A stretch of DNA of 33,706 bases from positions 1 to 33,706 of the forward strand of contig CANQHQ010000015.1 of the NCBI GenBank assembly GCA_947623825.1, read 5' to 3'. Within the stretch, counting starts at the first letter, position 1. Each line of letters opens with the position of its first letter. Origin of the DNA: an uncultured Bacilli bacterium. Its GTDB lineage: Bacteria > Bacillota_I > Bacilli_A > RF39 > UBA660. The translations under genes and the position numbers were made by a program. The notes below the pieces were generated by a model that made no database searches, was not told the origin of the DNA, and saw only the letters and a list, made by a program, of their open reading frames with translations. This document shows, piece after piece, positions 4,681 through 6,834 of the stretch.

Positions 4681-4698
4681 ATTTTGGAAATCATAAAA

Positions 4699-4726
4699 AA
4701 ATCAAGCGTTTTGCTTGATTTTATTT
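4699..4726. terminator. Bidirectional terminator between the YugP-type and VanY-like genes
   Basis: AAATCAAGC (4699-4707) pairs with GCTTGATTT (4713-4721) around a five-base loop. A T-run follows on the plus strand and an A-run precedes it, so it can end both convergent transcripts. The stem overlaps the first base of the minus-strand stop triplet at 4721. Confidence 0.85.
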
Positions 4727-6613
4727 TGTATATTGTTTTGCTTTTTCTTGTGGAACGATGTCTTCTTCTAGGTAGAAACCTTCTACCATAGTTGGGTCAA
4801 TCTCTCCATCTTTGTTGTATGAGTTTTCATTCGCTACTAAGTATCCAACAATGTCTCCTCCATCCTGAAGGTATTGTTGAATTAACTCTGTTTCTTGTAA
4901 ATTGATATGTTTTAATTCCTCATCTACTTTAATTACAACGACATATCCAGTTCGGATATCATTATAATCTAAGTATGGTTTCTTGCTGTTTTCTTTTTTC
5001 TCCATATCAAACTTTGTCGTATAGACGCGAGCCCCTTCTTTTAAAGTAACCTTTTCTAAGTATTCTAGCGGTTCTTCTGAAACTTCTAAGTTTGTTACTG
5101 GACTTTTCTCTGGTACTGTTTGTTCTTCTTGTTTTTCTGGTTCTTTTTCGCTGTTTTCTTTTTCTTCTTCTTGTGTTTCTGATTCTTTTTCACTGTTTTC
5201 TTCTTCTTGTGTTGTTTCTTCTACTGGTTTTGTCTGTGATTCTGTCGATGGTGTCGTTTCTGTTTCTGAAACGGTTTCTTGTTCCACTGTTTCTGTTTCT
5301 TCCATTACTAGATTATTTGCATTTAATTCTTTTAAGTAATAGTATTCATCAAACGTAATATCTAATTCTTTTATTTCTTTGGCTACTTCTTTTCCTACAT
5401 ATCTTAACTGCCATGGCTCTTCATCATATCCAGTAATATTTGTTTTTCCTTGTGGATATCGAATGATAAATCCATATTCATCGGCATGTTCTTTAAACCA
5501 ATCATAGTCACTTTGAATTAGATATTTTTCTTGATCGTAGTAACCTACGGTTCTAATATCGATTGCTAATCCAGTTTGATGTTCTGAATGTCCAGGTCTT
5601 GCCGATACAGCATCTACTTTTTCAAGATCGTTATTGTATTCTTGAAGATGTCTGTTGTAGACCGTTTCTTGGTAGTAATATGGACGATAAGCACTAAATG
5701 GTTCGACGATTACGCCTGCTTTTTCTGCTTCACGAGCTAATTGATTATAGGCTTCTGCTGCTTCTTTTCTCAATTTATATTGGCTGTGATTCTCTAGTAC
5801 TTGTAAGTCTTTTGGTTCATAATCACTTGGTAATTTATTGTATTTATTTACTAGTACCAAATTACTTTCTGGATTTTGGATTTCCACAACATCTGTGTAA
5901 AACTCCTTATCTAACCCAATGTTCACCTGTAATACAGCATCTTGAACGGATGTATTGTTTTTCTTCTTGTAGGCTTTATAGCGTTCCAATTTTGTTGGAT
6001 CATAGGAAGGAATGCTTTCATATTCCTTTATTTCTTTTTTTGCTCTTTCAATTTCTTGTTTTGCTTTACTTTCTTTTTCAATTTTTTGTCTTTGTAACTC
6101 TTCTTCTTGTTGCTGTTTTATTTGAGCAGCTTGGTCACTTTTTTTCTTAGAACTTAATGCAAGGGGAATGATCGTTGTAAGAATACATACGAGAGCTACT
6201 GCACAAAAAATATTTCTACGAGTTGTTTTTTTCTTTTTATCTACTTTTTTCTTTTCGCTAGGTTTTTCCTTGGTTACTTGTGTTTTAACTGGTTTTCTTT
6301 TCTCTTTTTCTTCTTTTTTTACTAGAGCAGTTTGTGTTTCTTTTTTCTTTTTGATTGGTTTGGTTGTTCTTTTATTTGTAATTGTTCTAGCATCCAAGGA
6401 TTTCATAATTTTTCTTTCTGCGTTTTTGTAGATATCTTCTAGTTCAGGTATCTGATTTTCTCGTAATTTCTTTTCTAAAGCCTCTTGAATTTTCTTTTTT
6501 GATTTTGTTGGTTTGATTCCTAGTAGAGTATAGTAGTTTTTTAGTGAACTTTTTCTTGTTACTTTTCTCATTTCCGTTCTACTTCTCCTTTTCTCCTTTT
6601 TTTGTTGTGTCAT
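4721..6613 (-). CDS. Membrane-anchored VanY/LdcB-type carboxypeptidase-like protein with a J-domain-like N terminus
   Basis: Probable wall peptide carboxypeptidase homologue (D-Ala-D-Ala or L,D type), 630 residues. Residues 24-82 (from NYYTLLGIKP) resemble a J domain without HPD. A Lys-rich stretch, one membrane helix (135-155) and a coiled coil (about 157-200) follow. The peptidase domain (about 265-420) has SAYRPYYYQ, SARPGHSEHQTGLAIDI (ligands His345 and Asp352) and EPWQLRYVG. Glu399 is the expected base, but the third ligand is Gln402 where the family has His, so activity is uncertain. A Glu/Thr-rich spacer (438-505) leads to an unrecognised C-terminal domain. The first ATG follows AAAGGGGAA; residue 16 (6568), behind GGAGAAAAGGAG, is an alternative start. 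It is transcribed alone from a consensus promoter, against its neighbours. Confidence 0.85.
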   Translation of the reverse strand: MTQQKKEKRRSRTEMRKVTRKSSLKNYYTLLGIKPTKSKKKIQEALEKKLRENQIPELEDIYKNAERKIMKSLDARTITNKRTTKPIKKKKETQTALVKKEEKEKRKPVKTQVTKEKPSEKKKVDKKKKTTRRNIFCAVALVCILTTIIPLALSSKKKSDQAAQIKQQQEEELQRQKIEKESKAKQEIERAKKEIKEYESIPSYDPTKLERYKAYKKKNNTSVQDAVLQVNIGLDKEFYTDVVEIQNPESNLVLVNKYNKLPSDYEPKDLQVLENHSQYKLRKEAAEAYNQLAREAEKAGVIVEPFSAYRPYYYQETVYNRHLQEYNNDLEKVDAVSARPGHSEHQTGLAIDIRTVGYYDQEKYLIQSDYDWFKEHADEYGFIIRYPQGKTNITGYDEEPWQLRYVGKEVAKEIKELDITFDEYYYLKELNANNLVMEETETVEQETVSETETTPSTESQTKPVEETTQEEENSEKESETQEEEKENSEKEPEKQEEQTVPEKSPVTNLEVSEEPLEYLEKVTLKEGARVYTTKFDMEKKENSKKPYLDYNDIRTGYVVVIKVDEELKHINLQETELIQQYLQDGGDIVGYLVANENSYNKDGEIDPTMVEGFYLEEDIVPQEKAKQYTK

Positions 6614-6672
6614 CGCATTTTTCCCCTTTTATCGACTTATAAAAGACACAACTATCCGCGTTTTTCCGTTGT

Positions 6673-6701
6673 ATTATATTGCTTTTTTTTTGATTTGTCA
6701 A
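6673..6701 (-). promoter_or_regulatory. Consensus sigma-70 promoter for the VanY-like gene
   Basis: On the minus strand TTGACA (6701-6696) and TATAAT (6678-6673) are exactly 17 bases apart, with an A-rich spacer. This is a perfect consensus vegetative promoter and implies strong, constitutive expression of the wall protein. The transcript would have a leader of about 50 bases. Confidence 0.85.
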
Positions 6702-6752
6702 TCTTATTTAAAAAAAACTGTTATCAAATTGCCTTTGTTTATGGGATGTTCC

Positions 6753-6781
6753 TTCATCAAATTTCTATTGTATGTTATAAT
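6753..6781 (+). promoter_or_regulatory. Promoter for mrnC-rlmB-sigma operon
   Basis: TATAAT at 6776-6781 has an upstream TG (6773-6774), giving an extended -10. TTCATC at 6753-6758 is a moderate -35 with 17-base spacing. It is divergent from the VanY-like promoter about 75 bases away. The predicted start near 6788 gives a leader of about 47 bases before the mrnC start chosen here. Confidence 0.6.
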
Positions 6782-6834
6782 GCAGGTAGGTGACTATGTG
6801 TGCCTTGAACTGAGTGAAAGGAATGTGTGCTTTT

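Follow-up and report, generated by a model that had tools for sequence, protein, structure and literature searches.

The usual role of a J domain is to bring Hsp70 to a particular place. TopJ of Mycoplasma and DjlA of E. coli are J proteins associated with the membrane, the cell envelope or a surface organelle; unlike the protein described here, both keep the HPD motif, and neither is known to have a VanY domain.

J proteins without HPD constitute a fourth type of J protein (PMC13254874). According to a 2026 review, replacing the H of HPD by Q, or its D by N, abolishes the stimulation of Hsp70, and HPE is apparently the sole change that is tolerated (PMC13254874). Pam16, in which the site reads DKE or DKS, binds the J domain of Pam18 and inhibits it (PMC13254874, PMC8605242). 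The J-like domains of TbPam16 and TbPam18 are thought to work independently of Hsp70 (PMC11349236). In the open literature searched, no description was found of membrane proteins that combine a J domain with LysM or VanY.

A 630-residue membrane protein between yugP and mrnC

The window, which is the whole stretch of 33,706 nucleotides that was analyzed, belongs to a 1.48-Mb draft assembly of 61 contigs. One of its genes encodes the protein whose features are collected in Table 1. The segment singled out in the sequence-only reading, at 6368–6544 on the minus strand, corresponds exactly to residues 24–82 of this open reading frame (4721–6613, minus strand). The N-terminus is basic, the linker that follows the J-like segment is lysine-rich, and another charged stretch lies between the transmembrane helix and the VanY domain. 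Ahead of the helix, 49 lysines and arginines stand against 17 aspartates and glutamates; by the positive-inside rule, the N-terminus with the J-like segment would lie on the cytoplasmic side. Hydropathy and this charge count support the earlier view of a single-pass protein with a cytoplasmic J-like end.

Table 1. Features of the 630-residue protein (coordinates are those of the window).
Feature	Position	Strand	Basis or remark
Whole open reading frame, 630 residues	4721–6613	−	J-like domain, basic linker, transmembrane helix, VanY domain, acidic linker, C-terminal domain
J-like domain (probable), residues 22–80 (approximate)	6374–6550	−	Pfam, genome scan, shuffles, AF2 model, PDB comparison
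QIPE at the HPD position, residues 54–57	6443–6454	−	Profile alignment and sequence reading
Predicted transmembrane helix, residues about 135–153	6155–6211	−	Hydropathy, charge count
VanY / M15B domain, residues 280–408	5390–5776	−	Pfam PF02557, E 3.9e-35
Gln402 (CAG) in place of the presumed third zinc-ligand His of ExxH	5408–5410	−	His in 46 of 47 compared VanY domains
C-terminal domain, residues 489–630	4724–5149	−	Common to other single-transmembrane proteins of 684–803 residues in the genus

The gene (1.9 kb) is inserted between yugP and mrnC on the opposite strand. In 52 of 54 related loci that carry both genes, some of them possibly from the same genomes, yugP and mrnC are 0–244 bases apart. 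The two exceptions, L194 and L210, have 1.5–1.8 kb at this position, and there is no VanY at either junction. The 1.5-kb insert between yugP and mrnC in genome G002 consists of unrelated genes, whose products resemble a zinc-ribbon protein and a lipoprotein. Inserts at the yugP–mrnC junction (window 4681–6828; L048, L194 and L210) differ between genomes. The neighboring yugP has its closest named relatives in draft assemblies from uncultured Bacilli, several of which were apparently sampled from animal guts.

Within the 386 genomes examined from the taxonomic family, the J-like–VanY layout is an orphan. At E ≤ 1e-50, the alignments of VanY relatives in these genomes do not extend upstream of about residue 124, and no homolog of the J-like segment is joined to VanY. 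Most of what a search of the same 386 genomes with the N-terminal segment returned was canonical DnaJ or small J proteins with HPD, and none of the J-domain matches examined is fused to VanY. Searching genome and viral contigs by exact short peptides, an approach that reaches close relatives only, gave no relative of the full-length protein; in phage and plasmid searches, the match was confined to the VanY part.

The C-terminal domain recurs on single-transmembrane proteins of 684–803 residues in the genus, one of them encoded in the genome of the window, and is 34–44% identical to these relatives. These proteins (L131–L135) have a large cytoplasmic region that belongs to no known family in the one member scanned, and the extracellular C-terminal domain is present in four of the five loci, namely those that were read. 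An AF2 model of the C-terminal domain from five sequences has low confidence, with a pLDDT of 58, and a Foldseek search with it turned up nothing meaningful.

A J-like segment without HPD

In sequence, the J likeness is weak yet above chance. DnaJ is the top Pfam family for the segment (E 0.009–0.034, 14.7–16.5 bits), with a score below the curated cut-off of PF00226 (16.5 vs 27.8 bits). When all six frames of the genome were scanned with PF00226, only three matches emerged, which are DnaJ, a J-LysM protein and, in third place, the J-like segment itself (15.3 bits), and the best match in a search of PDB sequences is the J domain of CbpA (E 0.014). Against a profile of 29 J domains from the family, the segment scored 30.0 bits and the best of 20,000 shuffles 13.2, the profile being biased toward the segment because its members were fetched with that segment as query. 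With a second profile, built from 26 J domains obtained with a different query, the segment scored 21.0 bits against 14.8 for the best shuffle, and its open reading frame came first against 2,000 background frames. On neither profile did any of the 20,000 shuffles reach the score of the segment. This signal is confined to helices I–II; the half comprising helices III–IV is, when taken alone, at chance level (1.6 bits, a score matched or exceeded by 8,792 of 20,000 shuffles). The segment had been proposed to mirror all helices of a J domain, and the likeness does rise above chance by Pfam, genome scan and shuffles, but only helices I–II are recognizable.

The HPD site reads KLRENQIPELED, and the tripeptide HPD is absent from the entire protein. 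An ungapped alignment replaces HPD by QIP (residues 54–57 being Q-I-P-E), and the HMMER alignment inserts the I, so that H becomes Q, P is kept and D becomes E; under either alignment, the H is Gln. The earlier claim that HPD is lost is thus upheld, but the replacement is QIP(E) rather than the QIPELED originally given. Because HPD is lost, the J-like domain should not stimulate DnaK. A J sequence that is recognizable, here in helices I–II only, with a non-conservative replacement of HPD is what characterizes type IV or pseudo-J proteins.

An AF2 model of residues 1–110, computed from the single sequence with no alignment, has helices at residues 24–31, 39–52 and 56–83, with a per-block pLDDT of about 80–92 across residues 21–80; such a model may owe much to the NYYTLLGI motif. 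The predicted helices are compatible with a J fold, in which helix I packs against the antiparallel pair II–III. When Foldseek was run with this model, the best PDB rows were J domains (E 0.4–1.3), many of the top viral rows were J domains too, and none in either set passed E 0.001. Among the 50 alignable Foldseek candidates, VIA-align ranked Tim16 from the Tim14–Tim16 complex best, with 1.6 Å over 57 residues and a Z of 7.9 that is not decisive, values below about 13 in helical models possibly reflecting only a common arrangement. Canonical J domains fell below Tim16 (Z about 4–6, rmsd 3.3–6.6 Å). On this model, a J-like fold of the segment is probable, and disorder, an outcome that would have spoken against the original proposal, is not what is predicted.

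Tim16/Pam16 (Magmas), a type IV protein, resembles the window protein in its J-like fold without HPD and in acting at a membrane. Unlike the window protein, it is mitochondrial and peripheral to the membrane, and it has no extracellular domain. The likeness is one of fold only, as the HPD site reads DKE or DKS in Tim16/Pam16 and QIP(E) here.

A VanY domain with Gln402 at a conserved histidine position

The VanY domain scores 120.9 bits against a PF02557 cut-off of 25 (E 3.9e-35). It retains SEHQTGLAID, corresponding to the SxHxxGxAxD motif, together with His345, Asp352 and the catalytic Glu399. The protein shares the Pfam VanY domain, the SxHxxGxAxD motif and the catalytic Glu of ExxH with the VanY / M15B DD-carboxypeptidases and differs from them in having Gln402 as well as additional domains, one J-like at the N-terminus and one at the C-terminus. 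Where relatives read ExWH, the window protein reads EPWQ, with Gln402 encoded by CAG. The equivalent residue is His in 46 of the 47 distinct VanY stretches collected, the one exception coming from an RNA methyltransferase fusion whose VanY part is itself degenerate. This His is presumably the third zinc ligand of family M15.

The complete zinc site of an active M15 enzyme (His, Asp and His plus Glu) is therefore not present, as Gln402 occupies the place of the third ligand. This replacement makes it improbable that the VanY domain still works as a zinc peptidase. A one-base sequencing error at Gln402 is conceivable, although nothing points to one. A search for literature on VanX or VanY enzymes mutated in zinc ligands found no paper. 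The protein had been taken for an extracellular wall peptidase; the assignment to VanY stands, but the peptidase activity is doubtful.

Also encoded in this genome (L138:500–2320; G000 contig C5) is an RNA (uracil-5)-methyltransferase with a C-terminal VanY fused to it. That VanY is degenerate, with F, E, Q and Q in place of the zinc-site and catalytic His, Asp, Glu and His, and frames of similar length in several members of the genus match the fusion.

J proteins with extracellular LysM domains in the same family

The genome of the window encodes a second J protein (L152:1480–2886; G000 contig C6), in which a J domain with HPD is followed by a cytoplasmic region, a transmembrane helix and two LysM domains. 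The same layout was read in L155, L156, L161, L163, L164, L165 and L166, from at least six other genera. HPD is kept in L155, L156, L161, L165 and L166, is HPE in L164 and is replaced by NLE in L163. L155 and L163 belong to a single genus, so that even between such close relatives one has retained HPD and the other has not; judged from these sequences, HPD has been lost more than once among the membrane-tethered J proteins of the family. In L159, from the genus of L164, the membrane and wall parts are present and no J domain is recognizable. One Hsp70 (DnaK) is encoded in the genome of the window, on the same contig as DnaJ.

The J-TM-LysM proteins (L152, L155, L156, L161, L164, L165 and L166) share with the window protein an N-terminal cytoplasmic J or J-like domain, a transmembrane helix and an extracellular domain associated with peptidoglycan. 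They differ in that HPD is mostly kept, in having LysM rather than VanY, and in the linker, which carries a conserved RNR motif before the transmembrane helix. Taken together with the window protein, these relatives indicate that membrane-tethered J domains with a wall-binding part outside recur in the family. The layout of cytoplasmic J domain, transmembrane helix and wall domain is thus recurrent, and the version with a J-like segment and VanY was found only here. The sequence-only reading had recognized no standard architecture in the protein, which is accurate for this version, unique among the 386 family genomes, but not for the wider layout, which recurs with LysM.

A putative pseudo-J adaptor and its alternatives

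The tentatively preferred explanation, possible though short of probable, is that the protein is a type IV pseudo-J membrane adaptor with a probably inactive VanY domain outside, acting with a genuine J domain in the manner of Pam16. It builds on what the computations support, namely the J-like sequence signal and model, the loss of HPD and of a zinc ligand, the existence of J-TM-LysM proteins and a single Hsp70. The orientation in the membrane, the inactivity, the binding to the wall, the partner and the influence on DnaK are inferred, as in the following scheme. The cytoplasmic pseudo-J end would keep the fold and, having lost HPD, would not stimulate DnaK. Outside, the VanY fold would probably have lost zinc catalysis and may retain only the binding of peptidoglycan stems, and the module after it would be one that also occurs in further envelope proteins of this genus. 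The pseudo-J domain would pack against a genuine J domain, as Pam16 does with Pam18, the best candidate being the J domain of the J-TM-LysM protein of the same genome. As a result, DnaK activity would be recruited or restrained on the cytoplasmic side of the membrane, close to sites bound to the wall.

Because both HPD and a zinc-binding residue are lost, an adaptor between the cell interior and the wall is likelier than an enzyme. The Pam16-like pairing is suggested by the structural match to Tim16 and the presence of such a partner, and the J-TM-LysM relative L163, likewise without HPD, counts in favor of a pseudo-J domain. Furthermore, since the layout recurs and VanY has lost a zinc ligand, the link from cytoplasm to wall envisaged at the outset is plausible if the protein serves as a non-catalytic adaptor. 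Weighing against the pseudo-J adaptor are the reliance on a one-sequence AF2 model with Z below about 13, the lack of a sequence signal in helices III–IV and the lack of any J-like segment joined to VanY elsewhere in the 386 genomes. Pam16 is moreover a mitochondrial protein, likened to the window protein by fold only; additionally, the gene lies on a different contig from the J-LysM and DnaK genes, which counts against pairing.

Rather unlikely is a decaying or neutral fusion, in which a VanY gene acquired a J-domain fragment and both parts are degenerating with no J-related function. Such a history would fit a single-species orphan inserted on the opposite strand where yugP and mrnC are adjacent in nearly all related loci, with the signature motifs of both domains (HPD and the third zinc ligand) gone. 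However, the 630-codon frame is intact, VanY is still recognized at E 4e-35, the C-terminal domain has kept its identity to relatives, and the J-like part still yields a compact AF2 model.

Doubtful to much the same degree is an Hsp70-independent docking or assembly module that, like other type IV J proteins, would engage another cytoplasmic partner from the cytoskeletal, division or wall-synthesis machinery. The absence of HPD here and in L163 agrees with it, as does the proposed Hsp70 independence of TbPam16 and TbPam18 (PMC11349236), but no candidate partner was found, and the closest structural match acts through a J partner.

That the segment is a helical hairpin which arose by chance in a lysine-rich tail in the cytoplasm, its J resemblance not due to homology, is very unlikely: the Pfam score below cut-off, helices III–IV at chance level, the basic, low-complexity surroundings and the middling structural Z would allow it, but no composition-matched shuffle reaches the score on two profiles, the genome has only three DnaJ-profile matches, and J domains top two separate searches, one by sequence and one by fold.

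Implications for the family

If the pseudo-J adaptor is extended to the family, transmembrane pairs of a J protein (J-TM-LysM) and a pseudo-J protein (J-like-TM-VanY), both tethered to peptidoglycan, might in some gut Bacilli place and gate DnaK on the inner side of the membrane opposite wall-bound sites, as a bacterial analogue of Pam18/Pam16; this broader proposal is quite unlikely. The occurrence of HPD-bearing and HPD-less versions in one genome makes the pairing hypothesis testable. By having a J or pseudo-J domain in the cytoplasm and a wall-associated domain outside, such proteins would couple chaperone activity to how the wall is placed or what state it is in.
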